This document shows positions 37,123 through 56,630 of a stretch of DNA of 64,000 nt, in pieces; position 1 is the stretch's first letter; every line of letters starts with the position of its first letter. This DNA is from an uncultured Eggerthellaceae bacterium (lineage in GTDB: Bacteria; Actinomycetota; Coriobacteriia; Coriobacteriales; Eggerthellaceae), in assembly GCA_944321455.1 (NCBI GenBank), contig CALULI010000006.1, forward strand, positions 434,001-498,000, given 5' to 3'. The notes under the pieces were generated by a model. That model ran no database searches, was not told the DNA's origin, and worked only from the letters and a program-made list of their open reading frames with translations. A program made the translations under genes and the position numbers.

Positions 37123-37171
37123 CGTTTTCCGCCGTAAACCATTACGCTACCCATTTCTTAATAAAAACATA

Positions 37172-37842: not shown

Positions 37843-37880
37843 CGCCAGTCACAAATTATGTGTCTGGCGTTTTCTTTTTA
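37843..37880 (+). terminator. Hairpin before the YraN-like gene
   Basis: CGCCAG-t-CACA (37843-37853) pairs with TGTG-t-CTGGCG (37859-37869), then TTTTCTTTTT. This would end a plus-strand transcript crossing the gene-free stretch. Confidence 0.75.
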
Positions 37881-37969
37881 TCCTTGCCCATACCTATCTC
37901 TATGCAGCCTCTGAGCCACAGGGCAGCAAACAAAAGAACAGCTGCTCAAACAGATCTAAGGAGGCAAAA

Positions 37970-38329: not shown

Positions 38330-38386
38330 GCCTCCTTTATAGCTCCTAAGGGCTTATCAGGGCTCGCAAGTAATGCGGGCCCTGAA

Positions 38387-39352: not shown

Positions 39353-39437
39353 GAAAGAATATCTCCTTAGCTATCAGCTAAGTTTTTCTGTATGCCCGAT
39401 TGCTATGATGGAATTACTCTAGAAGGGAGTGTGAGTA

Positions 39438-39815
39438 ATGGGCAATTTGGGCGGGTACGAAACTGTTACCAAATTTATAAAGAAAATCGGTGGTCCGAAA
39501 GTGTTTGTTGGTTTATTAGCGACAGGAGCAGCTGTATCCTTCGGTTTTGGGGCTGCCTTACGGCCAAAGATTGAAAAAGTTAAAGGGAAGATTCTAAAGA
39601 AAAAGGCCTCCGAGAAGGGCTTTAATAAAGAGGAGCCTTATAGATTTACTTGTGATTATGAGTTATTAAAAGGTCCAAACGTTAGCGAGGGCGACGGTTT
39701 TGTTGTTTTGGAAGTCCTAGATGATGTAGCTATTATTGCTTGCGAGAATGATTTAGATACTCCGTTTGTAATAGGGATAGATGAATTAAAGTCTATTTCG
39801 AATTTTGGCAAATAG
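39438..39815 (+). CDS. Small membrane-associated protein upstream of the zinc-ribbon nuclease
   Basis: 125 aa, ATG 39438. One hydrophobic stretch (about 21-41: VFVGLLATGAAVSFGFGAAL) is followed by a very basic segment (KVKGKILKKKASEK) and a small beta-rich C-terminal domain (about 62-125). It could be a single-pass protein with a cytoplasmic domain, or a soluble protein with a membrane-binding helix. It lies 71 bp before the large zinc-ribbon protein and probably shares its transcript. No family is recognised. Confidence 0.6.
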   Translation: MGNLGGYETVTKFIKKIGGPKVFVGLLATGAAVSFGFGAALRPKIEKVKGKILKKKASEKGFNKEEPYRFTCDYELLKGPNVSEGDGFVVLEVLDDVAIIACENDLDTPFVIGIDELKSISNFGK

Positions 39816-39886
39816 ATTAGAAGGCAATATTGGATAAAGGAGAATTTTGCCTTACTAGAGAATCGAGATGCTAGGGATGATTGACA

Positions 39887-42265
39887 ATGGCTGATTCTGA
39901 AAAAGAAATAGACCCTTCATTGTCTAGGCCTACTTTGTCTCGGAATAATATGACGTTAAAAGAAGCGAATCCTTCTCTGGCGGCTCAGTGGCACCCAACC
40001 AAAAATGGGAATATGAAACCAGAGGATTTTTCACCTAATTCAAATAAAAAAGCCTGGTGGCTTGGAAGATGCGGCCATGAATGGTGTGCAGTGATTGCTT
40101 CTCGTTTTAAAGGTGCTGGCTGTCCTGTTTGCAGCGGTCTCATTCCAGAAGTTGGCGTAAATGATCTCGCAACAACTCATCCTGAGCTTGTAAAGAAATG
40201 GGACTATGAGCGTAATGAAAAATTGAAGCCTGAGGATTTAAAAGCAGGTTCTCATAAAAAAGTCTGGTGGAAATGCGATCAGGGGCATCATTTTCAGGCC
40301 CCACCTAGCAGGATTGTTCAGGCAGGAAAAATGACTTGTCCTATTTGTTCTGGGAGAGTACCTGAAGTTGGCGTAAATGATCTTGCCACAGCTAATCCCA
40401 TGCTAACTTCTGAGTGGCATCCAATAAGGAATGGAAATAAAAAGCCGCAAGATTTTTTACCAAAATCAAACCAGAAAGTATGGTGGAGGCATTGGTGCGA
40501 AGATGCCCACATGTGGCACGAATGGGATGAGACTATCAGCAATAGAAGTGCAGGTTGTGGGTGCCCATATTGCTCAAATCATAGGCTGTTGACTGGTTAT
40601 AACGATCTAGAGACAAAATATCCTGATATCGCTTCCGAGTGGCATCCTAATAAGAACAACGATCTCCAACCAAATTCAATTGTTTATTCAAGTAGAAAAA
40701 AGGTGTGGTGGAGATGCGAATATGGCCATGAATGGCAAGTTTCTCCTGCTAATAGAATAGGAAAGGACAAAATTACAGGATGTCCCATATGCAACGGGGC
40801 GCATGGTACAAGCTTTCCTGAGCAGGCAATATATTATTACTTTCGACAGGTATTAGGGGATTCGGTTGGATCTCGTGTTTTGATTAGCGATGGATCCAAA
40901 GAAAAAGAAGCTGATATTTATATTCCTGATAGAAATGTTGTAATTGAATATAATGGCGCTTATTGGCATAAAGGGAGCGAAAAAAGAGACAAAACAAAAG
41001 AAACCTTTTTTCATAAGCTGGGTCTGAAACTATTTAAAGTAGCAGAATCCACCCACAAAAAAATTGAGGACAATACAATATTTTATGAACCGAAATCGAG
41101 GGGCTTAAGTGATCTCGATTGGGTGATTGAGTCGCTATTCGATTTTCTTGAAGTTAAGAAACCAGATATTAATACGCGGCGAGATCAATCTTTGATTTAT
41201 AAAAACTATAAGCAGGATCAAAAACAGAAGGGACTAGAAAAGCTATATCCCGATCTTGCTGCGGAATGGGTTGAAGAAAAGAATTGTGGCTTAAGCCCAA
41301 ACCAGTTCACGCCTGGATCTGTTTATGAGGCGGTTTGGTTATGTCCAAACTGCAAAAGTGAATATAGGATGTCTATTCAAAATCGCGTGAAAGGATATGC
41401 GTGTCCTTATTGCGCGAAGAAGAGAACGATCGTCGGAAAGACAGATTTATTCTCTACTAATCCCGAGTTATCCGAGTGGTGGGATTATGAGCTAAATGAC
41501 GCGGAAGATCCGGTAAATGTTTTTGCAGGTAGCTCAAAAACATATTGGTGGAAAAGCCCAGAGGGTGGAAAGCCTTTTAGAAGCACGCCCGAAAGTATGT
41601 CGAAAGGGTCTAGGCCAAACCCTATCATCGGCTTAAATGATTTCAAAACTCTTTTTCCGGAAATAGCAGAAGAATGGCACCCTGATAAAAATGAAGATAT
41701 GACTCCCGAAACTATTACGGCAGGCAATTGCAGAAAAAAATGGTGGAAATGCAGCAAATGTGGCTATGAATGGCAAACTACACCGTATCAACGCTCAAAA
41801 GGGCAAGGGAAATGCCCTCGATGTAATAGCGTTGCGTTTTTGTATCCCGATTTAATGAAGGAATGGGATTATGAGCGTAATCAGGGTATTGATCCAGAGA
41901 CGCTATCGGTTCATTCAAAGAAAAAGGTTTATTGGAAACATTGGTGTGAAGATGCTCAAATGTGGCATAGCTGGAAAGCCGCGATTAAAGACAGGACGCA
42001 AGGCACAGGATGCCCGTATTGTGCTAATAAGAAAGTTCTAGTAGGTTTTAATGACCTTGCTACTACTCATCCTTGGCTGGCTGAAGAGTGGCATTCTGGA
42101 AAAAACAACGAGATGACACCGAAAATGTTTACTGCTGGATCTAATAAAAAAGTTTGGTGGCTGGGGAAATGTGGTCATGAGTGGGAAGCTGCTATTTATA
42201 GTAGATCAGCAGGGACAGGCTGCCCGATTTGCTATAAAAGTAGACATAAAACCAATAAGGATTAG
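39887..42265 (+). CDS. Nine-repeat zinc-ribbon protein with an embedded PD-(D/E)XK/VSR-like nuclease domain
   Basis: 792 aa, ATG 39887 with SD AGGGA (39873-39877). Nine DUF4379-type units run through the protein; each begins with a W in EWHP/KWDY, then a PEDF-like step, KKVWW and a zinc pair such as CGHEW...GCPVC. Four precede and five follow a nuclease-like domain (about 308-425) with Glu312 in SFPEQA, Asp343 in EADIYIP and Glu354 in VVIEYNGAYWH, the catalytic order of VSR-type endonucleases. Unit 6 lacks its cysteines. Such proteins often sit in mobile-element cargo, with a DNA-targeting or defence role suspected. The target is unknown. Confidence 0.8.
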   Translation: MADSEKEIDPSLSRPTLSRNNMTLKEANPSLAAQWHPTKNGNMKPEDFSPNSNKKAWWLGRCGHEWCAVIASRFKGAGCPVCSGLIPEVGVNDLATTHPELVKKWDYERNEKLKPEDLKAGSHKKVWWKCDQGHHFQAPPSRIVQAGKMTCPICSGRVPEVGVNDLATANPMLTSEWHPIRNGNKKPQDFLPKSNQKVWWRHWCEDAHMWHEWDETISNRSAGCGCPYCSNHRLLTGYNDLETKYPDIASEWHPNKNNDLQPNSIVYSSRKKVWWRCEYGHEWQVSPANRIGKDKITGCPICNGAHGTSFPEQAIYYYFRQVLGDSVGSRVLISDGSKEKEADIYIPDRNVVIEYNGAYWHKGSEKRDKTKETFFHKLGLKLFKVAESTHKKIEDNTIFYEPKSRGLSDLDWVIESLFDFLEVKKPDINTRRDQSLIYKNYKQDQKQKGLEKLYPDLAAEWVEEKNCGLSPNQFTPGSVYEAVWLCPNCKSEYRMSIQNRVKGYACPYCAKKRTIVGKTDLFSTNPELSEWWDYELNDAEDPVNVFAGSSKTYWWKSPEGGKPFRSTPESMSKGSRPNPIIGLNDFKTLFPEIAEEWHPDKNEDMTPETITAGNCRKKWWKCSKCGYEWQTTPYQRSKGQGKCPRCNSVAFLYPDLMKEWDYERNQGIDPETLSVHSKKKVYWKHWCEDAQMWHSWKAAIKDRTQGTGCPYCANKKVLVGFNDLATTHPWLAEEWHSGKNNEMTPKMFTAGSNKKVWWLGKCGHEWEAAIYSRSAGTGCPICYKSRHKTNKD

Positions 42266-42320
42266 CGAATCTTGAGACGATCTTTATTGCTAGATGTATT
42301 ACTTTTTGATGTTGCTTTAT

Positions 42321-42365
42321 AGCCTCCCCTCCGAAAATCTCTTTAAGCTTTTCGGAGGGGAGGCT
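42321..42365. terminator. Strong hairpin between convergent genes
   Basis: AGCCTCCCCTCCGAAAA (42321-42337) and TTTTCGGAGGGGAGGCT (42349-42365) form a perfect 17-bp stem. It separates the zinc-ribbon nuclease from the convergent secreted protein. T-runs are weak, but location suggests it ends both transcripts. Confidence 0.75.
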
Positions 42366-42372
42366 TGTTTGC

Positions 42373-43311
42373 TTATAGCTGAGATTTGAATCTATATGCA
42401 ATTACTGCTGCTAGAGACAAAACAAAAGGTGTAAGCAGAATGGGCAGAAGCCCTTTTATGGGGTCACTCGTTGCTGGTAGATATTCGGGCTTATCCTGAG
42501 CATTCTCGTTGCTATCTGACTCGGGGCTTGAACTAGAGGTGCTATCGGATGCCGTAGATACGATTTCTTGGTAGCCGCATACGCTGCATGCGCCGTTTTC
42601 TATCAAGTGCTCAGCCTTCTCAATAGTTATTCCGCAGGACTCGCAATCTTTCCAGTGATGGGTGATGTTGCTTTGCCAGCTATCTGATGGAGTATGTCCC
42701 GTTGCGGGAATGGTGTTTGTTGTTGAGTATTTGCAACGTGTGCATGTCGAAGTAGAGCTGCCTTCAGTTAAGCAAGAAGGTGGATTAGTGATTTCAGAAT
42801 CAAAAACATGTGGTTTGCGCTCAAACTCTAAGCTGCAATATGGACAAGAAATCCAGCACTCGTTTTCGTTGTGCTGAATTTTTCCTAGCCAATAGGGATG
42901 GGTTAACTCGCCTGTTGTTTTGGTAAGGCTTCCGCTATACATAGAAGACGTTACTTCAACTTTTAAATATTTATGATCCCAGATTGTTGAGATTTGGATG
43001 GTGCTGTCATTGCCATTGATGATACTCTGAACGTTTTGAGTAAAGGCAGCATCATCAGCTAAAAACCATTGGTATCTTAGAGAGGCATCGGAACAAGAAG
43101 GGTCAAGAGTAACTTTTGCGGTTAATGTATCGCCGGGATGATAGCGACCTTCAAATTCTACTGTTCCTACAAGTTGGGAGTTAGTGGTTTCGTTAGAAGC
43201 AAATGCTTCTTGGTGGGGCATGAAAAGCAGAATTACAAACACAAGAGCCATTAAGGCAAACGAATTTGCTCGAATATGAAAAGACTCTCTCATGGTTCTC
43301 CTATTTTTCAC
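42373..43311 (-). CDS. Secreted protein with sortase-like LPATS tail
   Basis: 312 aa. A signal peptide (about 15-38, ending EAFASNE) leads to an Ig-like segment with TLTAKVTLDPSC and RYQWFLADD, which is typical of surface repeats. Then comes a Cys-rich section with four zinc-ribbon-like pairs (CWISCPYC, CTRCKYST, CESCGIT, CSVCGYQ). The C-terminus is a Ser-rich linker, LPATSD, a hydrophobic span and a short basic tail (FKSQL), the layout of sortase anchors, but with Ser in place of the Gly of LPXTG. Extracellular, function unknown. Confidence 0.75.
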   Translation of the reverse strand: MKNRRTMRESFHIRANSFALMALVFVILLFMPHQEAFASNETTNSQLVGTVEFEGRYHPGDTLTAKVTLDPSCSDASLRYQWFLADDAAFTQNVQSIINGNDSTIQISTIWDHKYLKVEVTSSMYSGSLTKTTGELTHPYWLGKIQHNENECWISCPYCSLEFERKPHVFDSEITNPPSCLTEGSSTSTCTRCKYSTTNTIPATGHTPSDSWQSNITHHWKDCESCGITIEKAEHLIENGACSVCGYQEIVSTASDSTSSSSPESDSNENAQDKPEYLPATSDPIKGLLPILLTPFVLSLAAVIAYRFKSQL

Positions 43312-43629
43312 TCATTTAAGGACGCTATTATCAGTCGGCAGATGCTTGTTACTAGATAAGCGTTCGCTATGATACCAGATAGTTTGGTTAGTTTATTCCT
43401 AACTGCTGTTTTCTTGTCTACTTATAGTGTCATTGGCTTACTGTTTTTTGTTGCACAACATTGGTTTCGGGTGCGATGCGGAAAGACATTTTGAGTACCG
43501 TTCGAGATGTGACGACAAATTGTAAATCTCACGCAGAGCGAAATTTTGTTTTTGTCATTATGTCGCCACGTGAAAGCGAAACAGCTCCTGTATTGCTCCG
43601 CTTTCGCTTCGCTCTCGCTCATGCTCTTC

Positions 43630-44014
43630 GAAGACCCCCCAAGGTCGTCTTCATAAGCATTTGCTCGGTGCCGCAAGTTTTTCGTGCGACGGCTCGGGTG
43701 ACCTCGCCGTCCACCAAAAACCTACTCTCGCGCTCGACTAAATTGATGAAGCGATGAGTCCTTGATGACGCGGACATCGTCGCTTCTTTCGAGCGCTCAC
43801 AATACCTACCGCCCTTGCCTTAACCAGTGGCAGCGGCAGGGGGTATGTCTTGCAAGATGTGGGAATGTACCAACATTCCAATCTTGGTTTTGTTTGGGAG
43901 CCTGAAATCCCAAATAAAACAAAACAAAAGGAAGACATTCGGGTCCCTGCACCCAAATGCCTTCCTTAAGTTATATGGAGCGCTAGGGGCCCTAAAAGCC
44001 CTAGCGCTCCATAT
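43630..44014. other. Cluster of inverted repeats next to the relaxase gene, candidate transfer origin
   Basis: At least seven stems occur in 385 bp: GAAGAC/GTCTTC (43630-43652), GACGGC/GCCGTC (43688-43711), GAAGCGATGAGTCC with GGAC-a-TCGTCGCTTC (43748-43786), and GGAATGT/ACATTCC (43862-43879). The others are a 13-bp stem at 43887-43920, a 15-bp stem at 43930-43965 that ends a minus-strand transcript with T-runs, and a perfect 16-bp stem at 43973-44014 that includes the relaxase stop codon. A transfer origin is expected beside mob genes; no nic site is identified. Confidence 0.45.
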
Positions 44015-44879
44015 CCTGCTCAACGGCTTGCATCATCGAGCGAGCTGTACTCATACCTAATCCCTTAGTCATGCCTGCGATAGAAAAGCCACGTCCCAAT
44101 TTATTGCCGTTAACGCGATAGTTCCCGCTTCTGAATTGGATTTGAGTACCTGACTTATTCATGGTCATATGAATATCATTTGACTCAAGACGATGCGCGA
44201 GCTCGCGCATGCGGTTTGTCTGAGGTGCTTCGCGAGCGATAGAAGAGACGTGGCGCTTAACTGCTTGGCGAATGTACTCTTTCTCGCTTATTACGCCGCG
44301 TGATTTCATCTCACGCTCAGCTCGGGTGGGTTGGCGTGCATGAACGCCGCTATTTCGCTCATTGGCGCGGACTTGGGAGAGCTGCCACTTTTTGTCCATG
44401 TACCGCATGGCGTTGGCTCGCTCTATCTTTGCGTACTTGCTACGCCCTTCATCCAGTCGTTTTCCCGTCTCAAGGTTTGTGCGGTTGATGCCGATGTGTA
44501 CCGCATAGCGATCAGTGCCATCTTTTGCACAATGTTCTTTATGAAGTACCCAGATAGCTTCCTGTGATGGGTAGCGCCTCTCTACCCACTCTTTCGCAAA
44601 TACCATGCACTTATCTGAGGTCATCTTTCCGCCATTGCAGTCGCACTCATCGGGGTTGAAACTGATCACTTGGTGATACATGTAGGTATTGGCAGCACCC
44701 GCGCGGGCAGGGCTATTATGCCCGTACGCCTCACGGGTTGCATTCATTTCCCTATCCCAATGATCCTCATTGATAAGGTGCTGGCTATCGCGTGCGAGCG
44801 CACGCTCATCGTTCAAATACTTTCCGAGGTTGGAGAGGTGAGTAGGGCTTGTGATAGAAATCTGCTTGATGATAGTCAT
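44001..44879 (-). CDS. Relaxase (MobP-like)
   Basis: 292 aa. The N-terminal relaxase fold has MTIIKQISITSPTHLSNLGKYL and two histidine motifs, YMYHQVISFNPDE and DRYAVHIGINRTN. Many relaxases have a longer C-terminus; this one is short. The middle is rich in Arg/Lys and binds DNA. The gene ends in GTTGAGCAGGATATGGAGCG, a tail shared with the coupling protein. It starts just 3 bp after the virD4-like gene ends, in the order mobC - virD4 - relaxase. Confidence 0.85.
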   Translation of the reverse strand: MTIIKQISITSPTHLSNLGKYLNDERALARDSQHLINEDHWDREMNATREAYGHNSPARAGAANTYMYHQVISFNPDECDCNGGKMTSDKCMVFAKEWVERRYPSQEAIWVLHKEHCAKDGTDRYAVHIGINRTNLETGKRLDEGRSKYAKIERANAMRYMDKKWQLSQVRANERNSGVHARQPTRAEREMKSRGVISEKEYIRQAVKRHVSSIAREAPQTNRMRELAHRLESNDIHMTMNKSGTQIQFRSGNYRVNGNKLGRGFSIAGMTKGLGMSTARSMMQAVEQDMER

Positions 44880-44882
44880 GGC

Positions 44883-46805
44883 TTAGCGCTCCATATCCCA
44901 GGCAGAAAACTCGTCTTCTTCAATAGCTTCTTTGGTACGCTCTTCGCCCATAAAGGAGTCGAAGTCGATATGCCAAACATCAACATCATTGATGTCTTCT
45001 TTAGAGGCTTTCTCTTTGAGTATCGCCTGATAAGCTATGCGCTTTTCTTTTTCGTGCTCGCGGCTTCCAAGATCGAAGTATTGTTTGGCGGGTGTTTTGG
45101 TTGCATCTACCAGCGGCATACGGAATACGCCGTTGCGGTTTTTAACTCCCGTTTCCTTTGATTTGACGACAATGGCGCCATCAATATCAGGAGAGAAGTT
45201 AAGCCACTCCCAAGGGTGGATCAGGTCATCGGCTCGCTCGGAGGCAGAGGTAGTGGAAGAGGAGTTACTGGCGCTTTTCTGAGACGAGGTGCTGCGCGTC
45301 ATAACGCCGCGTTTGCCAACAAGTTCGGTGAAATAGTCGCGATCGGCTTTCTCAGACAAGGAGAGCGCCACTTTTACTCCAACGTTTGCCAAGATCTCCT
45401 TGGCTCCAGCACCGCCATCACCAGGGCGGTTGTAAAGAGCTAATTGTGTAGTACTCTGCAGGTACCCATACCAGGATACGCCATAGCTGCGTCCAAGATT
45501 AACAATGGAAGCGAGAGGAATCTTGGGAAATGAGCCGAATTCATCCAGAATCAGATTGGTTTTAATAGGAATTGCTCCACCATTAGCGTTACCGATTTCC
45601 TGTACACGTTGCCACCACTGTGAAAAGAAACAACCTAAGAGGCAATTTGCAGGATGCTCTCTGCTTAAGACATGTATATAGAGCGTTGTACGCTTGTTGA
45701 TCAGGTCATCAAGCGTAGGGTTGCTTTTTGCGGTCATCCAACGGATGCTCGGTGAGGTGAAGGGACGCAGGGCAACTTTGGCGGTCGAGAGCACGTTCTT
45801 TCCAGCCGTTGTCTCTCCCCCAGAGAGGAACTCCGAAACAGAGGAAAAGGCGGGATGATCGGGACCTAGATTGCGAAAGAAATCCTTAAAGGCAGCAGAG
45901 GGATCTTTGCCCTCACCAGTGGTACCCTCGTCGATCATTGCACAAACGCTTGCCATGTTCTTCTTGGAACGCTCGATATCAGCAGTTGCCACTGCGATGA
46001 AGCAGGCAGCGAGAAGCCCGCGTGCCGCATTACTGAAAAACGGGTTCTTATCCTCAGTTGGCACTAGATTAGCAGCGAGCTTATCGGCTGCCAGCTGCAT
46101 ATTAGCAATATCACGTGCTTCGGCATAGTCAGCCACTAAATCAAGTGGGTTGTAGCGGTTACCGTTTAATGGGCTCTCGAGGTCGAAGAGCACGACGTTG
46201 CTGATTTCAGCAGCACGCTCGCCAGTGAGCTCGATGATCTCGTTTTTAAGGTCAGAGATAACGAGGTTGCAATCCGCTTCAAGCCCAAGATGGACTGTTT
46301 CGAGCATAGAATAGCGGCTTTTGCCACCTCCTGTGCGCGCCACCACCATTTGGTGAGGGGTTTTGGAGTCATAGAGGTAATGGCCGTTTTCGAACCCGTA
46401 AACAAGCCCAGCAGATGAAGGCTTTCCTTTGCCGTCCCAAGCGTCGTTCATTTTTGAGCGCAACCGAGGTAATTCAATGATTTGGGAATTTCCCAAGACG
46501 CTGTTTTCGGCGATTGGCTTTTCTTTTTTGCTATCGAACCACAGCAGCATAAGTAAAACGCAAAGACCGGCGAAGGCAACGACCAGAACGAAGGCAAGCG
46601 TATCCTCTTCGCCCGTTGACAATCCAACGTAGTACTTGCTTAGAGCATCTAAGTAGTCATCGTTAGGGATAAGAGTAAAACTCTCTGGTGATATCCAGCG
46701 TGATGATGGAGCCATAAACAGCTCGATGATGTGGACGATCAGCGGAGCGCCCAAGACTGACAGGAGCAAAGTCAGAATAAGCCAAGTGATGGTATTCGTT
46801 TTCAT
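44883..46805 (-). CDS. VirD4/TraG-family type IV coupling ATPase
   Basis: 640 aa. Two N-terminal membrane segments (about 7-30 and 68-90) are followed by a RecA-like ATPase with Walker A VVARTGGGKSRYS (about 161-173) and Walker B NLILDEFGSFP (about 412-422). In the family it hands the relaxase-DNA complex to a type IV secretion channel. This element encodes no channel, so a helper must provide it. Confidence 0.92.
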   Translation of the reverse strand: MKTNTITWLILTLLLSVLGAPLIVHIIELFMAPSSRWISPESFTLIPNDDYLDALSKYYVGLSTGEEDTLAFVLVVAFAGLCVLLMLLWFDSKKEKPIAENSVLGNSQIIELPRLRSKMNDAWDGKGKPSSAGLVYGFENGHYLYDSKTPHQMVVARTGGGKSRYSMLETVHLGLEADCNLVISDLKNEIIELTGERAAEISNVVLFDLESPLNGNRYNPLDLVADYAEARDIANMQLAADKLAANLVPTEDKNPFFSNAARGLLAACFIAVATADIERSKKNMASVCAMIDEGTTGEGKDPSAAFKDFFRNLGPDHPAFSSVSEFLSGGETTAGKNVLSTAKVALRPFTSPSIRWMTAKSNPTLDDLINKRTTLYIHVLSREHPANCLLGCFFSQWWQRVQEIGNANGGAIPIKTNLILDEFGSFPKIPLASIVNLGRSYGVSWYGYLQSTTQLALYNRPGDGGAGAKEILANVGVKVALSLSEKADRDYFTELVGKRGVMTRSTSSQKSASNSSSTTSASERADDLIHPWEWLNFSPDIDGAIVVKSKETGVKNRNGVFRMPLVDATKTPAKQYFDLGSREHEKEKRIAYQAILKEKASKEDINDVDVWHIDFDSFMGEERTKEAIEEDEFSAWDMER

Positions 46806-46815
46806 TGTTTATCTC

Positions 46816-47160
46816 CTAAAGTTGGTTTCGTGAATCGATAAGGAAGCGGGATACGTCTTCGGCGGTTTTGGAAACCGCTTGAAGCGAGTTGTTCAGTGAT
46901 TGAGCTGTTTTAGTATCAATGCTCCGAGAGTGAACATAGCGTGTCAGCTGGTTGAGGTTGTTGCCTTCGCGCTTGAGAGCAACAAGCAGGTCTGACAGTA
47001 ATTGCCTATCAACAATGATGTTTGGCCCTGTCGAATCGGACGAGCATTTTCGACGCACGTATTCACTAACGCTCAAATTCGCGTTACGTGCCTTTTCTTT
47101 AATGTGATTCAAATCAGATTGGCTCAGTCGGATAGTGAGCCAGGAGTTTTTCGATTTCAT
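46816..47160 (-). CDS. MobC-like relaxosome accessory protein
   Basis: 114 aa from ATG 47160, which has SD GAAAGGG; the upstream extension crosses the right-end repeats and is not used. The N-terminus has the ribbon-helix-helix style LTIRLSQSDLNHIKEKARNANLSVSEYVR, and the C-terminus the LVALKREGNNLNQLTR helix of MobC proteins. It would bind the transfer origin with the relaxase. Confidence 0.85.
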   Translation of the reverse strand: MKSKNSWLTIRLSQSDLNHIKEKARNANLSVSEYVRRKCSSDSTGPNIIVDRQLLSDLLVALKREGNNLNQLTRYVHSRSIDTKTAQSLNNSLQAVSKTAEDVSRFLIDSRNQL

Positions 47161-47174
47161 AGCAACCCTTTCGT

Positions 47175-47207
47175 TTGGGACAGAGGGTTGGGACAGATTT
47201 GGGACAG
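47175..47207. repeat. Right-end arm-type repeats (three)
   Basis: TTGGGACAG at 47175-47183, 47188-47196 and 47199-47207, three exact copies. They match the left-end set at 30,871-30,911. Confidence 0.8.
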
Positions 47208-47322
47208 GAGAAGTCCGATCAACTGTCCTCAACCCTCTTTGGGTTGCCTAGTCTTTGAAATATCCCCACGTCAAACCGTGTAGAGTCGGATTAAACAGTA
47301 TGGGAAATGCTATTGAAAGCGC

Positions 47323-47371
47323 CTCGTAATGCGTAGGTCGCCGGTTCGAGTCCGGCCGTTGGCTCCACGAA
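47323..47371. repeat. attR: 49-bp direct repeat of the tRNA-Thr end
   Basis: Identical to 30,782-30,830. It marks the right junction of the element. Confidence 0.95.
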
Positions 47372-47903: not shown

Positions 47904-48164
47904 ACAGAGTAACCCCCTTTGTTATAGGAAGAATTATTCCATAGTAAACAAGAAAGAAATTCGAATCTGAGTAAATGGACCATAATGAAGAGTAGACGTA
48001 AGGTCGACAAATCCCCTAGTCAAATAGGGCTTTACTAACTGCCAGCTAATTTCAAATCTTATAAATTATGTACAATGTATTCGTAAGATTCCACAATGAA
48101 AATTTAGCATGAGGAATTGAAACGCATTTATAGGTGCTTCAACCTTCTAAAGCGGGTGGGTGCA

Positions 48165-51100
48165 ATGTCTGATTCATATAGCTACGAATACACGCATATT
48201 AATGAAAGCTTTTACGAAGATACAATAGTAGAGTACCTAACAGATAATTTAAATTACATACATTTATATGGTCCAGACGTTGTACGTACTTCTGACGATT
48301 ATAGGGACGTGTTTCTTCCTGATGTTCTACCAGAAGCGTTACGTCGAATTAATAAGAATCTTCCACGTGCCGCAATTCAAGAAGCCATTTTGAAAATTAA
48401 CAATATTGAGGGAGGATCGCTAGAACAAAGGAACGAAGTTTTCAGCGATTATTTACAGTCAGGTGTAGAGGTACATTTTTTTGATGGCGAGGAAGACAGA
48501 GACGATATCGTCAAGCTTCTTGATTACGACCGCCCAGAAAACAATGAATTCCATGTTGTAAACCAATGGACATACGTTGAATATTCTGAAAAGCGACCAG
48601 ATGTAGTCATCTTTGTAAATGGAATCCCTCTTGTGATCTTTGAGTTGAAATCACCTTCAAGAGAAGAGACAGACTCTTCTGAAGCTTATTTGCAATTAAG
48701 AAACTACATGAAGCATATTCCAAGCATGTTTGTTCCAAACGCTTTTTGTGTAATGAGCGACATGTCGGATACTCGTGTGGGGACTATTACGGCTTCTGAA
48801 GACCGTTTTGTTGAATGGAAGTCGATTGATGGCAATTACTCCAATACGCAAAATGCGAATTGGAAGACCATGCTAGAAGGGATGTTTCGTAAAGATAGAC
48901 TTGTTGATTTAGCAAAAAACTTTATCTGCTTTAATGACAGTTCTGATAAGGTAGTAAAAATTCTTGCGGCATACCATCAATATTTTGCGGTTCATAAAGC
49001 TGCCGACCGTGCTGTTGAGGCAGTTCAAGGTGACGGAAAAATTGGTGTTTTTTGGCATACCCAAGGCTCAGGAAAATCTCTTTCAATGGTTTTCTTAGCA
49101 CATATGTTGCAAGAAAAATTAGAAAGCCCAACTATTGTTGTTATTACTGACAGGAATGATCTCGACGATCAGTTATTTGCTCAATTCAGTCGGTGCTCAT
49201 CCTTTTTGCGGCAATTTCCCGAACGGGCAACTACGCGTAAAAACCTTCAGTCTCTTTTAAGAGGTCGTGAAGCTAACGGGATTATTTTTACAACAATGCA
49301 GAAATTTATGGAGGATGAAGAGCCTCTGTGCGATAGAAGCAATGTTGTTGTGATGGTTGATGAAGCTCATCGTGGTCAATATGGCCTAACGGAAAAAATA
49401 GATGCTTCAGGAAAAATTTCTATTGGGGCTGCTAGGTTAGTACGCAAAGCCCTCCCAAACGCTTCGTATATTGGGTTTACAGGGACACCGATCTCTACAG
49501 AGGATAGAAATACTCGTGAGATATTTGGTGACTACATTGATGTTTACGACATGACGCAGGCAGTAGAAGACGAAGCAACTAGACCCGTGTACTATGAAAG
49601 TAGAGTAGTAGCTCTCGGTTTAGATGAAGATACACTTGAGCTTCTAGATCATGAGTATTCTGCCTTTGCTGAGTATGCTAATGAATACAGTGTTGAAAAA
49701 AGCAAGCATAAACTTGGTGGATTAGATGCAATTTTCGCTACACCTCAAGTTATAGATGCTTTATGTAACGACATCGTAAACCATTACGAAAACAATCGAA
49801 GTGATGTGCTAACAGGTAAAGCGCTTATTGTGGCTTATTCACGAGAAGTAGCCGTAAAGATATATAAGAGGATTCTTGAAATACGACCTTCTTGGAGCGA
49901 AAAACTTGGCGTAGTTATGACTATGAGCAATAAAGATCCAGAAGATTGGTTTGAAATTTGCGGTGGCAAAAACCACAAAAAAGAAATGGAGCGAAAGTTT
50001 AAAGACGATAATGATCCATTAAAGATTGCCATTGTTGTGGACATGTGGTTAACGGGTTTTGATGTGCCGTCCCTTGCAACAATGTATGTATTTAAACCTA
50101 TGAAGGGGCACAACTTAATGCAAGCAATTGCGCGCGTCAATCGTGTTTATCGCGGAAAAGAAGGCGGCTTAGTGGTTGACTATATTGGCATAGCCAACGC
50201 CTTAAAACGCGCGATGAAGGATTACACAAATCGAGATCAGCATAATTATGGGAATATGGATATTGCTGAAACCGCATATCCTAAATTCCAGGAAAAGCTT
50301 GAAGTCTGTAGAGATCTGCTTCACGGATTTGACTATCGCAATCGGATATTTACTGATAAGAAACTTGATCTTGCCGAGGCTATTACTGAAGGTACAAACT
50401 GGTTGCTCGAGCCATCTCGTAATAACGATATGGAAGATTATCTGAAACAATGCCAGCTCATGAATCAAGCATTAAGTTTGTGTAAGAGTATGGTTTCTGA
50501 AAAAGAGCAGCATGAAGCAGCATTCTTATCAGTGCTTAGAGTTCAAGTACTAAGAATAACTGGCAGAACTGGTACTGGCGGAATTGGCATGACATATGCA
50601 GAATTTAATAAGAGAATAGCGTCAATTATGGAGCAGGCCGTAACCACTCAAGGCACTATTAATTTGTTTGAAAAAGAAAATGTAGAAATATCAATCTTTG
50701 ATGAATCATTCTTGGAGGAACTCTCAAGAATGAAAGAAAAGAACATTGCTCTAGAAACGCTAAAAAGATTGGTCAAAGAGCAAGTTAGGTTGTATCAGCG
50801 TACAAGTGTAGTAAAAGCAAAAAAGTTTTCTGAGCTTCTCCAAAAGTCAGTGAATGGATATTTGAATGGCATGCTGACTAATGCCGAAGTAATTGAAGAG
50901 TTACTTAATATGGCAAAAGAAATGATGCAAGATAGAGATGAAGCAGAAAAGCTCGGGTTGTCGACAGAAGAGCTAGCTTTCTATGATGCACTTACTAAAC
51001 CACGGGCTATAAAAGATTTCTATACTAATGATCAATTAGTTGCAATTACGCGTGAGCTGACAGCGGCAATGAGGAAGAGTTCTACTATAGACTGGCAAAA

Positions 51101-51245
51101 GAAAGAAAGTGCTCGCGCAGGAATGCGAAGAGCGATTAAACGTTTGCTAAAAGATTATGATTATCCTCCTGAAGGTATGGAGGATGCTATGGAAACGGTT
51201 ATGGCTCAATGTGAGCTTTGGGCAGATGTTCAGGTATACGAATAG
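48165..51245 (+). CDS. hsdR: Type I restriction enzyme, motor/endonuclease subunit
   Basis: 1026 aa from ATG 48165. An upstream in-frame TTG at 48117 has an AG-rich stretch only 2 nt away and is less likely. The N-terminal nuclease domain has PDVVIFVNGIPLVIFELKSP, with the D-x-n-E-x-K signature. The SF2 motor has Walker A in WHTQGSGKSLSMVF, DEAH in VMVDEAHRGQYG and motif III in IGFTGTPI. TACAAT at 48071-48076 is a likely -10 box. First gene of hsdR-hsdM-hsdS, gaps 10 bp and an overlap. Confidence 0.95.
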   Translation: MSDSYSYEYTHINESFYEDTIVEYLTDNLNYIHLYGPDVVRTSDDYRDVFLPDVLPEALRRINKNLPRAAIQEAILKINNIEGGSLEQRNEVFSDYLQSGVEVHFFDGEEDRDDIVKLLDYDRPENNEFHVVNQWTYVEYSEKRPDVVIFVNGIPLVIFELKSPSREETDSSEAYLQLRNYMKHIPSMFVPNAFCVMSDMSDTRVGTITASEDRFVEWKSIDGNYSNTQNANWKTMLEGMFRKDRLVDLAKNFICFNDSSDKVVKILAAYHQYFAVHKAADRAVEAVQGDGKIGVFWHTQGSGKSLSMVFLAHMLQEKLESPTIVVITDRNDLDDQLFAQFSRCSSFLRQFPERATTRKNLQSLLRGREANGIIFTTMQKFMEDEEPLCDRSNVVVMVDEAHRGQYGLTEKIDASGKISIGAARLVRKALPNASYIGFTGTPISTEDRNTREIFGDYIDVYDMTQAVEDEATRPVYYESRVVALGLDEDTLELLDHEYSAFAEYANEYSVEKSKHKLGGLDAIFATPQVIDALCNDIVNHYENNRSDVLTGKALIVAYSREVAVKIYKRILEIRPSWSEKLGVVMTMSNKDPEDWFEICGGKNHKKEMERKFKDDNDPLKIAIVVDMWLTGFDVPSLATMYVFKPMKGHNLMQAIARVNRVYRGKEGGLVVDYIGIANALKRAMKDYTNRDQHNYGNMDIAETAYPKFQEKLEVCRDLLHGFDYRNRIFTDKKLDLAEAITEGTNWLLEPSRNNDMEDYLKQCQLMNQALSLCKSMVSEKEQHEAAFLSVLRVQVLRITGRTGTGGIGMTYAEFNKRIASIMEQAVTTQGTINLFEKENVEISIFDESFLEELSRMKEKNIALETLKRLVKEQVRLYQRTSVVKAKKFSELLQKSVNGYLNGMLTNAEVIEELLNMAKEMMQDRDEAEKLGLSTEELAFYDALTKPRAIKDFYTNDQLVAITRELTAAMRKSSTIDWQKKESARAGMRRAIKRLLKDYDYPPEGMEDAMETVMAQCELWADVQVYE

Positions 51246-51255: not shown

Positions 51256-52764
51256 ATGGCAAAGAAAAAAGAGAACACCGCAGAGATTGGTTTTGAGGAG
51301 CAGATTTGGAAAGCCGCTGATAAACTTCGCGGCAATTTAGATGCTTCAGAGTATAAAAGTGTAGTTCTGGGTTTAATCTTCTTGAAGTATATTTCGGACA
51401 AGTTCGAAGAGCGATATCAAGAGCTTATTGATGAAGGTAAGGGCTTTGAGGAAGATCGTGACGAGTATACCTTCGAGAATATTTTCTGGGTCCCTAAAGA
51501 TGCTCGTTGGGGAGTAATTGCCGCTGCAGCACATACTCCTGAAATTGGTAAAGTAATCGATAATGCAATGCGTCAGATCGAAGCAGAAAACGATACTTTA
51601 AAGGGCGTTCTTCCAAAAAACTTTGCACGACAGGAGCTTGATAAGCGTCGCTTAGGTGATGTTGTCGATTTATTCACCAATGTAAAAATGGCAGACAAAG
51701 GTGACTCACGAGATATCCTTGGTCGAACCTATGAGTATTGCCTATCCAAATTTGCAGAAGCTGAAGGTAAGAATGCGGGAGAATTTTATACTCCGGCTTG
51801 CATAGTTAAGACTATTGTTGAGGTTATAAAGCCTTTACATGGGCGTGTGTATGATCCATGCTGCGGCTCGGGCGGTATGTTCGTTCAGAGCGCAAAGTTT
51901 ATTGAACGGCACCAGGGAAATATCAACGATATTTCTATCTATGGGCAGGAAAGCAATCCTACTACGTGGAAAATGGCGACCATGAATCTTGCCATTCGTG
52001 GTATTTCTGCGAATTTAGGAAAATTCAATGCGGATACGTTCTTTAATGATTGCCATAAAAATGAACGCTTCGATTTTATTATGGCGAATCCGCCATTCAA
52101 CATGAAAGATTGGGGTGGCGACAAACTTAAAGATGACCCTCGCTGGGATTATGGTATTCCACCTGAGGGGAATGCAAACTTTGCTTGGTTAGAACATATG
52201 ATTCACCATCTTTCAGCAAAAGGGCGTATTGGCATGGTATTAGCCAACGGTTCTTTGTCTTCCCAGACATCAGGTGAAGGAGACATTCGTCGTAATATCA
52301 TTGAGGCAGATCTTGTTGAAGGCATTATTGCAATGCCAAGCCAGTTATTCTATAGCACAGGCATTCCTGTTTCGATATGGATCCTAAATAAAGCAAAGGA
52401 TCGTCCTGGAAGGACGTTATTTATTGATGCTCGCGAAATGGGTACGATGGTCACCCGTAAGCTGCGAGAATTTACTGATGAAGATATAACTAAGGTGGCA
52501 CAAGCTTTTGATGATTTTAGAGCAGACAAGTTTGAACCAGAAAAGGGATTTTCTGCCGAGGTTTCAACTGAAGATATTGCTAAACAAGACTACATCCTGA
52601 CACCAGGACGTTATGTAGGAATAAAAGAAGAAGAGGATGACGGTGAGCCATTTGAGGATAAAATGAAGCGCCTTACGGGTGAACTGTCAAAATCCTTTGA
52701 GGAGTCAAATCGCCTACAAGAGCAAATCAAGAAGAATTTGGAGGCGATTGGGTATGAAGTGTAA
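51256..52764 (+). CDS. hsdM: Type I modification subunit, N6-adenine methyltransferase
   Basis: 502 aa. The HsdM N-terminal helical domain has LRGNLDASEYKSVVLGLIFL. The methyltransferase shows GEFYTPACIV, VYDPCCGSGGM (AdoMet site) and the catalytic NPPFNMKDWGG. It is complete and follows hsdR by 10 bp. Confidence 0.97.
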   Translation: MAKKKENTAEIGFEEQIWKAADKLRGNLDASEYKSVVLGLIFLKYISDKFEERYQELIDEGKGFEEDRDEYTFENIFWVPKDARWGVIAAAAHTPEIGKVIDNAMRQIEAENDTLKGVLPKNFARQELDKRRLGDVVDLFTNVKMADKGDSRDILGRTYEYCLSKFAEAEGKNAGEFYTPACIVKTIVEVIKPLHGRVYDPCCGSGGMFVQSAKFIERHQGNINDISIYGQESNPTTWKMATMNLAIRGISANLGKFNADTFFNDCHKNERFDFIMANPPFNMKDWGGDKLKDDPRWDYGIPPEGNANFAWLEHMIHHLSAKGRIGMVLANGSLSSQTSGEGDIRRNIIEADLVEGIIAMPSQLFYSTGIPVSIWILNKAKDRPGRTLFIDAREMGTMVTRKLREFTDEDITKVAQAFDDFRADKFEPEKGFSAEVSTEDIAKQDYILTPGRYVGIKEEEDDGEPFEDKMKRLTGELSKSFEESNRLQEQIKKNLEAIGYEV

Positions 52765-53974
52765 TTATGTAGCTATAGGTGAGATTGCTAGCATTAACTC
52801 ATCGCTGTATTCGTTTAAAGATAATTGGGAGAGTGTCATATATCTCGATACTGGCAGCGTAGTGCGTAATTCCATATCTGAATTGAAGCGTTTTAGGCCA
52901 AAATTTGATAAGGTTCCAAGTAGGGCTCGCAGAAAAGTTCGGAACAACAGTATAGTTATCTCGATGGTTCGACCTAATCAGGAGCATTTTGCTTTACTGA
53001 AAAATCCGCCTCATAACATGCTTGTTTCTACAGGGTTTAGTGTTATTGATGCAGACATGGAAAAGGTGTCTCCAGGATTTCTTTATTATGCTTTGACAAC
53101 AAAAGCGGCAACAAATTATTTTCAATCATTAGCAGAACAAAGCGTCTCAACGTATCCTACTTTAAGTGTATCTGATTTAAGTGCTTATATAATTCAACTT
53201 CCTGCAATTATAACTCAGCGAAAAATAGAAAAGATTCTTGTTGATTTAGATTCAAAGATCTCAGTCAATAATCAGATAAATGATTATTTAGGAGAATTAG
53301 CTCAATCGATCTTTAACAACTGGTTTGTTGATTTCGGACCTTGGGGAGGAGAGATTCCAGGTGATTGGGAATCTGGCGTTTTGGGTGACTATGTCTCCGT
53401 GAAACGCGGTGGTTCTCCTCGTCCTATTCAGGAGTTTCTTTCTGATGATGGTTTGAGATGGCTTAAAATTGCTGATGTGTCAGGAGTGACGAGCCCGTTT
53501 ATCATGACCATTAAAGAGCACATTAAAAAAGAGGGGCTTCGAAAAACGGTTCATCTTGATGCAGGATCCTTGGTCCTCTCTAATAGTGCGACTCCTGGCA
53601 TTCCGAAAATCATCAGCATTGATACCTGCATTCACGACGGTTGGCTATATTTTCCGGAATCGGACTTTAGCAACGAATGGCTGTATTGTTACTTCCAAAA
53701 TGTTCGGAAGCAGCTTGCTCGAATGGCGAACGGCAGTGTATTTCAGAATCTGAAGACGGATATCGTTAAGAATTTTGAAATTATTCGGCCTACAAATAAA
53801 GCGCTCGATGATTTTCAAGAAGTCATCGGTCCATTGTTTAAATTTATGGAAGCCAACCAGAAAGAAATTTTGCATTTAGGAGAGCTTCGCAATGCTCTAT
53901 TGCCTAAGCTAATGGCGGGCGAGATTGACGTCTCAAATGTTAATCCCGCTCAGCAAAATAATCATTTATCTTAG
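52754..53974 (+). CDS. hsdS: Type I specificity subunit in its present arrangement
   Basis: 406 aa, ATG 52754 overlapping the hsdM end. The first target-recognition half runs to about 170, followed by a central helix LDSKISVNNQINDYLGELAQ. A second recognition half begins at GDWESGVLGDYVSVKR (about 203), and a second conserved helix ends the protein (about 365-395). The recombination site at 53,274-53,290 encodes INDYL in the central helix, so everything beyond residue ~179 can be exchanged for other halves. Confidence 0.92.
   Translation: MKCNYVAIGEIASINSSLYSFKDNWESVIYLDTGSVVRNSISELKRFRPKFDKVPSRARRKVRNNSIVISMVRPNQEHFALLKNPPHNMLVSTGFSVIDADMEKVSPGFLYYALTTKAATNYFQSLAEQSVSTYPTLSVSDLSAYIIQLPAIITQRKIEKILVDLDSKISVNNQINDYLGELAQSIFNNWFVDFGPWGGEIPGDWESGVLGDYVSVKRGGSPRPIQEFLSDDGLRWLKIADVSGVTSPFIMTIKEHIKKEGLRKTVHLDAGSLVLSNSATPGIPKIISIDTCIHDGWLYFPESDFSNEWLYCYFQNVRKQLARMANGSVFQNLKTDIVKNFEIIRPTNKALDDFQEVIGPLFKFMEANQKEILHLGELRNALLPKLMAGEIDVSNVNPAQQNNHLS
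53274..53290 (+). repeat. Shufflon site A (in hsdS)
   Basis: AGATAAATGATTATTTA; core TAAATGATTATTTA. Reading frame INDYL. Same strand as hsdS. Confidence 0.85.
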
Positions 53975-54470
53975 CATTGGTATCGATAAGATCATCTAGA
54001 GTGCTTAGCAAGTAGGCAATTATGTGTTGGCGTTGTAGATTTGGCAAATCTATCTGTATTTGACGAATAAGTTTTATGCTGAGATTTTGCTGCGCTCCTC
54101 CATTAGCGAGACTGGCGATATGGTTATAATTATTCTTAAACCAGTAATAGACATAACGATAATCAGCTGCAGATTCGTCTATATCTAAGTTGCAGCAAGC
54201 CTGATTAGTTGTTAAAGGGATTTCCGCTAGTGCTGCTTTTCCAGCTGTAGCGCCGTACATCGCGACAATGACCGAATGCGGTCTAACCCATTTTGCAGAT
54301 GAGTTAGAAAACCCTTCCTCTGTTATGAGTGTTTCAGTTTTATGAATGCGGTTAAAATTCACTTCTTTAGTGTTCAACCAAGGTATATTGCCATTTTTGT
54401 AATACTCTGTTTTGCTGCTTTTTGGTGTGCCTCCCGAATAAATTCGGTTGCATATCTCGCCAACGTTCAT
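53940..54470 (-). CDS. Silent hsdS N-terminal half (176 aa)
   Basis: MNVGEICNRIYSGGTPKSS is a type I recognition-domain start, and the end, STLDDLIDTNAKINDYF, is the central helix up to site B, after which only a short AERD tail and stop follow. It is therefore an N-terminal specificity half without its C-half. Its start overlaps the recombinase stop (ATGA), so the two form an operon. It has no promoter of its own and no adjacent hsdM. Its last bases overlap the hsdS end by 35 bp. Confidence 0.85.
   Translation of the reverse strand: MNVGEICNRIYSGGTPKSSKTEYYKNGNIPWLNTKEVNFNRIHKTETLITEEGFSNSSAKWVRPHSVIVAMYGATAGKAALAEIPLTTNQACCNLDIDESAADYRYVYYWFKNNYNHIASLANGGAQQNLSIKLIRQIQIDLPNLQRQHIIAYLLSTLDDLIDTNAKINDYFAERD
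53955..53971 (-). repeat. Shufflon site B (inverted)
   Basis: On the minus strand AGATAAATGATTATTTT; 13 of 14 core bases match. It lies at the end of the minus-strand hsdS half, reading KINDYF. Confidence 0.85.
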
Positions 54471-55438
54471 TCTAAATACCTTCTATGTGAAGCTTTAACA
54501 TTGCTCTGATTCACTAATGCATAGTGCATTGTGGTATCAATTTTCGCATGACCGAGAAGTTTTTGCACCTGTTCAATAGGCATGCCTTTGTCTATGGCAT
54601 TTGTAGCAAGCGTTCGTCGAAATTTATGCGGATGAGTTCTGCTAATATTGAGCCTTCTGCCAAGCTCTCTTAAGCGCAGTTCGATACCACCTTTATTGAG
54701 TCGTTTATGGGGCGAGCGTAACGTTACGAATAAAGCAGAGTTGCTGTCGTTCCTTGAATGGAGATAGTCGAGCAAATGGAGCTTAGCACGTGCATCAAAA
54801 TAAGCTTTTCTTTGTTTATTTCCCTTACCAATAACGATACATTCGCGTTCAGTAAAATCGACATCAGTTCTGTCTAGCTTTACTAGTTCACCTATGCGCA
54901 TTCCTGTTGATGCAAGAAGGTCAACGATGGCCAAATCTCTTTCATTGTCACATTTGTCGCGCATAATTTCGAGCTCTTCATCGGTAAAAGTTTCTTTGAC
55001 TTTTAGAAATGTCTTTACTCTATGTATGCGTCGTGCAGGGCTTTTTACTATATAGTCTTCGTCTTCGAGCCATGAAAAGAAGCTTGACATTATTCTTCTA
55101 ATGTTGTCGATAGTAACTTTGCTTGAATTGTGATCCTGCTCATAGTTGTCTAGATAATCACGAAGATCATCTGTTTCTATTTGAGTAAATGGTTTACTTA
55201 TTGAGCGATCTATTTTTTGAAGAGTGCTTTTGTAGTATGTGAGTGTATTTTCGGAGCAGCCTTCTACTTTCTTTGCCTTCAAAAAGTGTTCTAAAAGAGT
55301 AGTGTTGTCGCAACTGTTTTGACCGAAAATATCAATTGCTGATTCTAGGATCATTGCTTCTTTTAATAACTTTAACTGTACGGAATTCAGAACACTTTGC
55401 ATTCGCGTGAGTACCGCATCGATTTGCGCATTGGTCAT
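54467..55438 (-). CDS. Tyrosine recombinase of the specificity shufflon
   Basis: 323 aa, XerC-like. A core-binding domain (about 45-145) is followed by catalytic motifs: LLASTGMRIGELVKL with the first Arg, the HxxR box in HPHKFRRTLA, LLGHAKIDTT with His, and TMHYALV with the nucleophile Tyr. It is flanked by hsdS halves and by four copies of the 14-bp site. Its sequence differs clearly from the element integrase at 30,944. It is the natural candidate for inverting the hsdS segments. Confidence 0.9.
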   Translation of the reverse strand: MTNAQIDAVLTRMQSVLNSVQLKLLKEAMILESAIDIFGQNSCDNTTLLEHFLKAKKVEGCSENTLTYYKSTLQKIDRSISKPFTQIETDDLRDYLDNYEQDHNSSKVTIDNIRRIMSSFFSWLEDEDYIVKSPARRIHRVKTFLKVKETFTDEELEIMRDKCDNERDLAIVDLLASTGMRIGELVKLDRTDVDFTERECIVIGKGNKQRKAYFDARAKLHLLDYLHSRNDSNSALFVTLRSPHKRLNKGGIELRLRELGRRLNISRTHPHKFRRTLATNAIDKGMPIEQVQKLLGHAKIDTTMHYALVNQSNVKASHRRYLE

Positions 55439-55520
55439 TTTTGCTCCTAAGTAGAAATAAGTAAACGAAGCAAAAATATACCTATTATTTCTTAGGTAGA
55501 CTTGTGATAGATATATTCGC

Positions 55521-55537
55521 AGCTAAATGATTATTTA
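55521..55537 (+). repeat. Shufflon site C
   Basis: AGCTAAATGATTATTTA with the complete 14-bp core, same orientation as site A, at the start of the second C-terminal hsdS half. Confidence 0.85.
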
Positions 55538-56146
55538 ACTGATTTGGCTACTGCTCTATTCGAGAAGGCTCTCAACGAAGAGACTTGCTTGATCCCGTTT
55601 GGTGAGCTAGCTGAACTTGAAGACTCAAAACGTATTCCGTTGAACAAGCAAGATCGCGAAAATCGCAAAGGTCCGTATCCATATTACGGAGCAACATCAA
55701 TTATGGATTTTGTCGACGATTACTTGTTCGACGGCATTCGGGTGTTGCTAGGAGAAGATGGTAGCGTCATGACTGATGAGGGTTATCCGTTCTTGCAGTA
55801 TGTTTGGGGCAAGTACTGGGTCAATAATCATGCGCACATCATAAAGGCGAAATCCGATTATTCGCTTGAAGCCTTATATCTCGCACTGCGTCGCACCGTG
55901 ATAAGCCACATTGTTACAGGTGCTGTCCAAATGAAAATCAGCCAGAAGAATCTTAATAGTCTGGAACTTCAGATGCCAAATCCAACCACGATTCCCGATT
56001 TTGGACCAATTTTTGCAATGTACAGGCACAACGCAGATGAGGCCAAACTACTGGCAGAACTGCGTGATATTCTTCTTCCTAAGATGATGTCAGACGATAT
56101 CGATGTGTCGAAGATTTCGACCCATTGGGAAGAGGACTTCGAATGA
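55526..56146 (+). CDS. Silent hsdS C-terminal half
   Basis: Open from the site: NDYLTDLATALFEKALNEE is the same central-helix position as NDYLGELAQSIF in hsdS, followed by a second target-recognition domain (FGELAELEDSKRIPLN, YPYYGATSIMDFVDDY) and a conserved C-terminal helix (ELRDILLPKMMSDDIDVSK). The first possible start is a TTG at 55,544 and no SD precedes it, so it is an expressionless cassette unless joined to an N-half at site C. Confidence 0.85.
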   Translation, partial: NDYLTDLATALFEKALNEETCLIPFGELAELEDSKRIPLNKQDRENRKGPYPYYGATSIMDFVDDYLFDGIRVLLGEDGSVMTDEGYPFLQYVWGKYWVNNHAHIIKAKSDYSLEALYLALRRTVISHIVTGAVQMKISQKNLNSLELQMPNPTTIPDFGPIFAMYRHNADEAKLLAELRDILLPKMMSDDIDVSKISTHWEEDFE

Positions 56147-56610
56147 ATGTTGCCGAATATTGCAGGAGATACCGAAAGGATAAACGCGTCGTTGAAAAGG
56201 CTCTGAAAAAGAATCGAGTAAGAGGTGTTGTCTATACAAATGGCATCGCGGATATCCCAGAAGATGCCAAAATTGATTACTACATTCCAAAACGTAAGAC
56301 AAATATCACCGTTCAAGATGCTCGGGTATACCTTCTAAAAGCTCTTGCAAGTTTTCATTATATTGACGCTTTTGTTTTGGGCTTGAGCGAAAGGGATTTT
56401 CAAGATGTAGTAAATACGATGGTAGCTCTTGGGCTTGTTGAAAGAATAGGTGAACCCGATGGCGTAACTACAACAGGCCTGAGAGCAACCCTTTCTGGTG
56501 AACGCTATGCAGAGATGAGTAATCGGGAGCTAGCAAAGTTTTTAGTTGAAAGCATTAGCTCCGGGATAACGCAAGGGGCATTAAGCTTCCTCATGATGCC
56601 AGCGTCATAA
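56143..56610 (+). CDS. Hypothetical protein at the end of the shufflon
   Basis: 155 aa, ATG 56143 overlapping the preceding stop. A basic start (RRYRKDKRVVEKALKKNR) may bind nucleic acid, followed by a winged-helix-like second half (RVYLLKALASFHY, VVNTMVALGLVERI). No family is recognised. It lies inside the segment between sites C and D, so it would move with the C-half. Confidence 0.55.
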   Translation: MNVAEYCRRYRKDKRVVEKALKKNRVRGVVYTNGIADIPEDAKIDYYIPKRKTNITVQDARVYLLKALASFHYIDAFVLGLSERDFQDVVNTMVALGLVERIGEPDGVTTTGLRATLSGERYAEMSNRELAKFLVESISSGITQGALSFLMMPAS

Positions 56611-56615
56611 TCACC

Positions 56616-56630
56616 TAAATAATCATTTAG
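56616..56630 (-). repeat. Shufflon site D (inverted)
   Basis: On the minus strand CTAAATGATTATTTA, full 14-bp core, just after the hypothetical gene. With site C it brackets an invertible segment. Confidence 0.75.

Follow-up and report, generated by a model that had tools for sequence, protein, structure and literature searches.

The 64-kb window, by which we mean the whole stretch of DNA analysed (positions 434,001 to 498,000 of contig CALULI010000006.1, assembly GCA_944321455.1, from an uncultured Eggerthellaceae bacterium), carries a Type I restriction-modification (R-M) locus whose specificity gene, hsdS, very probably belongs to a four-site shufflon with its own tyrosine recombinase. Scans of the window proteins against Pfam, NCBIfam and PADLOC assigned HsdR, HsdM, the HsdS (Methylase_S) pieces and a Phage_integrase protein; HsdR, HsdM and HsdS are adjacent, and HsdS has two target-recognition halves. 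There are two N-halves, one behind hsdM (N1) and one behind the recombinase (N2), and two C-halves (C1 and C2), arranged as follows:

48117..51245 (+): hsdR, Type I restriction subunit, 1042 aa (TIGR00348, 2.7e-172; PADLOC REase_I, 4.7e-287)
51256..52764 (+): hsdM, Type I methylase subunit, 502 aa (PF02384, 1.5e-109; PF12161, 4.3e-30)
52754-53974 (+): complete hsdS (N1-C1), 406 aa
52754..53276 (+): N1, fixed N-half of hsdS, its start overlapping the end of hsdM (PF01420 on hsdS; sequence)
53277-53290 (+): site A, TAAATGATTATTTA (sequence search)
53291..53974 (+): C1, the C-half at present joined to N1 (match to the S subunit of PDB 1yf2, 1.1e-27)
53955-53968 (-): site B, TAAATGATTATTTT, 13/14 (mismatch at core position 14)
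53969..54470 (-): N2, second N-half (PF01420, 5.6e-24; sequence)
54467..55438 (-): tyrosine recombinase, XerA/C-like, 323 aa (PF00589, 1.6e-34; NF040815, 6.1e-68; alignment to PDB 4a8e)
55439..55523 (-): 85-nt leader 5' of recombinase-N2 (position only; any promoter here is putative)
55524-55537 (+): site C, TAAATGATTATTTA (sequence search)
55538..56146 (+): C2, C-half without an N-half at present, in frame with site C (PF01420, 8.9e-10; PADLOC Specificity_I, 1.4e-52)
56143..56610 (+): 155-aa predicted DNA-binding protein, on the C-D segment (homologue and alignment matches only)
56616-56629 (-): site D, TAAATGATTATTTA, outer limit of the shuffling region (sequence search; counterpart used in relatives)

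The original prediction had proposed a shufflon with its own tyrosine recombinase, with site A inside hsdS, the second N-half ending at B, the second C-half starting at C, a 13/14 match at B and sites of alternating orientation; the coordinates above agree with it throughout, and the sites, the reading frames and the family and motifs of the recombinase support the proposal. Alignment and motif positions place all of the catalytic residues (R181, H271, R274, H297 and Y306) in the expected motifs. N2, now truncated just beyond site B as a 176-aa open reading frame (54470 to 53940, minus strand), has an ATG that overlaps the recombinase stop codon (ATGA) and would thus be translationally coupled to it. 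From its position, the 85-nt leader is a candidate carrier of the recombinase-N2 promoter; it forms the N-side of site C and would move together with recombinase-N2.

Only one short repeat family was detected at the locus, and each C-half is bounded by a pair of near-identical, opposite-facing 14-bp sites. At up to two mismatches, sites A-D are the only matches to the 14-mer in the window, although three of the four also match on the opposite strand because the core is nearly palindromic; 0/100 dinucleotide shuffles of the window reached as many matches. At up to one mismatch, the 14-mer occurs five times in the 1.55-Mb genome, and four of these occurrences are the window sites. The hsdS gene reads through site A with the codons I-N-D-Y-L (residues ~175-179). 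Inverted site pairs span 19-24 nt at 86-95 % identity with exact runs of ~16 bp, and the locus would therefore be missed by the REBASE survey of inverted-repeat hsdS loci, which demanded exact repeats of at least 20 bp (PMC7394358).

A core profile drawn from 49 loci lends further support to these sites as recombination substrates. Positions 2-13 are identical among all four sites in 49/49 loci, within-locus variation is slight and confined to positions 1 and 14, and the likeness stops outside the core. From one locus to the next, positions 2-4 and 11-13 hardly change, unlike 5, 6, 8 and 9, which vary. The site search tolerated two mismatches at any position, which bounds how divergent a site could be but means that the pattern was not imposed by the search. 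In tyrosine recombinases generally, binding arms flank a crossover region in which partner sites must match, and the observed pattern would fit fixed binding arms around such a region. Since position 14 varies between the sites of one locus in relatives, the mismatch in B is no sign of a dead site.

When the halves were fused in silico at the core, all four N/C combinations envisaged in the original prediction came out open and in frame (N1C1, 406 aa; N1C2, 381 aa; N2C1, 399 aa; N2C2, 374 aa), and each product fitted a full-length HsdS profile; the remaining joins encode half-length proteins of 176-215 aa. We enumerated the reachable arrangements by computer, taking opposite-facing sites as inversion partners. 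Four sites yield 16 arrangements and seven HsdS repertoires (N1C1, N1C2, N2C1, N2C2, N1C1+N2C2, N1C2+N2C1 and none). Leaving out site D cuts the arrangements to four, none of which makes N1-C2, and this bears out the earlier claim that D is needed for this combination. A single A-B inversion replaces N1-C1 by N2-C1. The B-C inversion, proposed as the step to N2-C2, does make that protein but leaves N1-C1 in place, so that two HsdS would be present together, a state found in 0 of the classified relatives; N2-C2 by itself requires two inversions. With the central block oriented as in the window, 8/8 arrangements hold one and only one complete HsdS, since the same C segment has N1 facing one of its ends and N2 facing the other.

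We propose that the XerA/C-like recombinase would bind the near-palindromic AAA...TTT arms and exchange strands inside the 6-bp centre TGATTA, the asymmetry of which would set site orientation, with opposite-facing sites giving inversion and like-facing sites deletion. The segments A-B and C-D, which carry the C-halves, and the central block of N2, recombinase and leader could each be flipped or exchanged, such that N1 (behind hsdM) and N2 (coupled to the recombinase) would receive C1, C2 or a truncating tail. The resulting change of HsdS would alter the bipartite target of methylation and restriction.

Three sets of near-identical loci caught in different states support this shuffling mechanism, their members differing by inversion or exchange of exactly these segments. 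Between the Lactococcus cremoris plasmids pJM2A and pUCCL627F, both C segments are swapped and each is inverted (100 % identity), with no break in colinearity at the recombinase or the flanks; in pJM1A the first C segment is inverted in place (100 % identity). In Bifidobacterium (L030 versus L032) and in gut Clostridia (L048 versus L052), a C segment lies inverted in the other slot (99.4 % and 99.9 % identity, respectively) with colinear flanks. The presence of a C segment in the other slot means that the outermost site, D in the window, is needed.

The states of 53 classified loci with distinct recombinases were then compared; the input to this classification was 55 loci with distinct recombinases, the window counted, a few of which have one further site. 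The block orientation of the window is found in 15/53 loci (the window and 14 others), with the complete copy carrying N1 in eight and N2 in seven. The other 38/53 have the opposite orientation: the hsdM-linked copy alone is complete in 17, the recombinase-linked copy alone in 18, neither in 3 and both in 0. Against an expectation of 1/4 per state under random orientation, exactly one complete copy in 35/38 loci gives P = 3e-8, the lack of doubles among these 38 gives P = 2e-5, and the mirrored C orientation differs between the two block-orientation classes (Fisher P = 0.003), values that are indicative only, given the relatedness of the loci and the fact that an assembly displays just its commonest state. 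Additional plasmid records, judged by annotation, likewise contained no double complete HsdS. That doubles are avoided argues that the recombinase-linked slot is expressed, and their avoidance in the opposite orientation too speaks for selection or for concerted recombination.

Of the systems characterised so far, SsuCC20p of Streptococcus suis comes closest; it is an experimentally proven four-site hsdS shufflon with 14-bp sites (PMC10790761). Both loci contain a Xer-family recombinase, four half-genes and four 14-bp sites; in SsuCC20p, hsdM, hsdR, the half-genes and the xer recombinase lie in one locus, the four repeats occur in two orientations (TAAATCATCATTTA/TAAATGATGATTTA), switching depends on its xerD, and the hsdS behind xerD is transcribed and active (PMC10790761). 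A complete hsdS is found there behind hsdM or behind the recombinase but never in both places, an exclusivity that the authors could not explain, stating its mechanism as unknown (PMC10790761). The recombinase block of SsuCC20p faces the same way as hsdM and that of the window the opposite way, a difference that may be a variable state or a sub-type and that we do not take as defining; because of it, exclusivity in the window's block orientation follows from topology. The window further differs in having the 155-aa gene on its C-D segment and a satellite pair of sites elsewhere in the genome.

Among other relatives, the S. suis locus L068 has a recombinase 59 % identical to that of the window and the order +-|rec|+-. 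The Bifidobacterium loci L030 and L032 (B. catenulatum subsp. kashiwanohense and Bifidobacterium sp. N4G05) share the window's order, block orientation and inner core AAATGATTATTT, with recombinases 64 % identical, but each of their C segments is ~650 bp and has no extra gene. The PsrA/SpnIII type of Streptococcus pneumoniae ranks after SsuCC20p in closeness. In Spn556II/SpnIII (cod), the tyrosine recombinase PsrA is encoded in the locus and acts on a 15-bp inverted repeat within the hsdS genes; there are three repeat families (15, 85 and 298 bp), PsrA serves only the 15-bp one, and the expressed copy is hsdSA (PMC4948785). The window, by contrast, has one short repeat family rather than several.

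The original prediction regarded the four-site layout as unusual, which the census contradicts, as does the prior characterisation of SsuCC20p (PMC10790761). Relatives ~60 % identical to the recombinase occur in Bifidobacterium, Atopobium, Faecalibacterium, Gemmiger, Ruminococcus, Streptococcus, Listeria, Enterococcus, Bacteroides and others. Where sites were recognisable, +-|rec|+- was the commonest order by a wide margin (exact match in 55/160 loci, many of the others being contig ends or having a core outside the pattern used), and it spans Actinomycetota, Bacillota and Bacteroidota. It is thus the modal layout of the recombinase family sampled (~55 loci): a standard form, common in gut bacteria, and not a rarity. 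Outside the four-site layout, one relative (L090:3418-6781) lies in a 1.7-kb unit present as a tandem duplicate at 99.9 % identity. A 55 %-identical recombinase is encoded on the archaeal Methanosphaera plasmid pNP174 (L211:6001-6999) with no hsdS annotated nearby, and from this copy the family may serve other invertible loci too.

Several observations weigh against an active shufflon in this organism: all of the rearranged states come from relatives and none from the window's own species, inspection of the 85-nt leader revealed no convincing promoter, and a search of three same-genus genomes (incomplete) returned no recombinase match. The locus might accordingly be a locked remnant, once invertible and now fixed, with N2 and C2 as decaying leftovers; the mismatch in site B, the present lack of a start for C2 and the lack of another known state from a conspecific genome are all compatible with this. 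We nevertheless think it very unlikely, as all halves are open with in-frame joins in 4/4 combinations, the recombinase motifs are intact, the start coupling of N2 is retained and the B mismatch falls at a position that varies among the sites of relatives. Still less probable is that the sites repeat the conserved HsdS motif I-N-D-Y-L by chance or because of its codons, with exchange proceeding by homologous recombination. Sites A, B and C do overlap the codons of this motif; D, however, is not within hsdS but follows an unrelated gene, the flanks diverge at once beyond the 12-bp core that is identical across the four sites in 49/49 loci, and the six copies of the core in the genome all lie at hsdS cassettes.

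A different possibility is that the locus inverts but works purely as an ON/OFF switch, the slot behind the recombinase being silent, so that N1-C1 and N1-C2 would be ON and the N2-C states OFF. The second hsdS is usually silent according to Atack et al. (PMC7394358), and the recombinase has no clear promoter. Yet N2 is joined to the recombinase through the ATGA overlap, most relatives have an ATG within ~30 nt of the recombinase stop, and SsuCC20p transcribes its copy behind xerD, which is active (PMC10790761). Moreover, the recombinase-linked slot holds the only complete HsdS in 25/53 loci and both slots are filled in 0/53, which would be unexpected if that slot were neutral. We consider a pure ON/OFF switch unlikely.

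The same inner core occurs at a second Type I system of this genome. Exactly six copies of the 12-bp AAATGATTATTT are present in the 1.55-Mb sequence, and none of the reversed control pattern; four are the window sites and two lie on contig 6 at 327210 (+) and 327861 (-). This satellite pair flanks the C-half of the single hsdS in a paralogous system ~160 kb away (hsdR, hsdM and one hsdS; L241:8198-14005, corresponding to about 327197-333004 of contig 6), whose HsdM and HsdR are 78 % and 76 % identical to those of the window. No recombinase was found in the 18 kb read around that locus. In eight other genomes with AAATGATTATTT, the core is confined to the four-site locus, except for one lone extra copy in two genomes. 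In form the satellite matches what A x C recombination, a deletion between two sites facing the same way, would leave behind (N, a C-half and D), and the window's recombinase could plausibly act on it. Contig 6 also carries a third Type I locus, which belongs to a different sub-family (L242:6248-13987). Its two hsdS genes (478 and 530 aa) stand tail to tail on either side of a gene for a 267-aa tyrosine recombinase, and it has long inverted repeats (66 bp exact); it is likely a second, independent inverting specificity locus.

The 155-aa gene on the C-D segment has an ATG that overlaps the stop codon of C2 (ATGA), indicating translational coupling, which probably confines most of its translation to states in which C2 is being read within an HsdS. 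The protein itself gave no significant family match in the Pfam, NCBIfam and PADLOC scans. At their start, its homologues weakly resemble HTH_17 (1.5e-4 in one), and an alignment of the family matches MarR regulators weakly (4b8x, 8e-4). A conserved-peptide search of genome and viral contigs and tblastn searches of plasmids and phages found no match, homologues turning up only in whole-genome searches of the order and class. These follow a Type III res gene (two genomes), a DUF499/HEPN gene (one) or genes that we read from their sequence as relE-like (two). The protein is best regarded as an accessory of restriction operons that is predicted to bind DNA. A role as an excisionase-type partner of the recombinase is disfavoured, as no such recombinase was present in the stretches read around these nearest homologues. 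A single-sequence structure model had a mean predicted local distance difference test (pLDDT) score of 43 and was not used. Other loci also carry extra genes in a C segment, namely an HNH-type gene in L151 and an insertion-sequence-like pair plus two unknown genes in L154.

Upstream of the R-M locus, an integrative mobilisable element occupies a tRNA-Thr gene (30782-47371), its ends marked by a 49-bp exact direct repeat (30782-30830 and 47323-47371). It encodes an integrase (30944-32140), a relaxase (44001-44879), a coupling protein (44883-46805), a MobC-like protein (46816-47232) and a 794-aa protein with nine DUF4379 treble-clef zinc-finger repeats (39881-42265). The R-M locus begins ~750 bp past the right end of this element, which precedes hsdR, ruling out the locus as its cargo. 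The G+C content falls from ~51 % at 1-24 kb to ~40 % across the R-M locus (stretch 32000-64000), a drop that suggests acquisition by transfer.

The satellite sites and the translational link between C2 and the 155-aa gene, neither of them noted in the original prediction, are the new elements here, and both are worth follow-up. The core profile, with arms invariant and a centre free between loci but fixed within each, predicts where the recombinase cuts and which loci could cross-talk, and the recombinase-less satellite hsdS with matching sites offers a direct test case for action in trans. Taken further, and as a tentative proposal that we do not yet favour, the two loci could form a network in which the window recombinase acts in trans on the satellite, switching the second Type I system on and off and exchanging C-halves between loci, with the 155-aa protein made only in C2 phases. 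If such a network exists, one recombinase may control both restriction systems.

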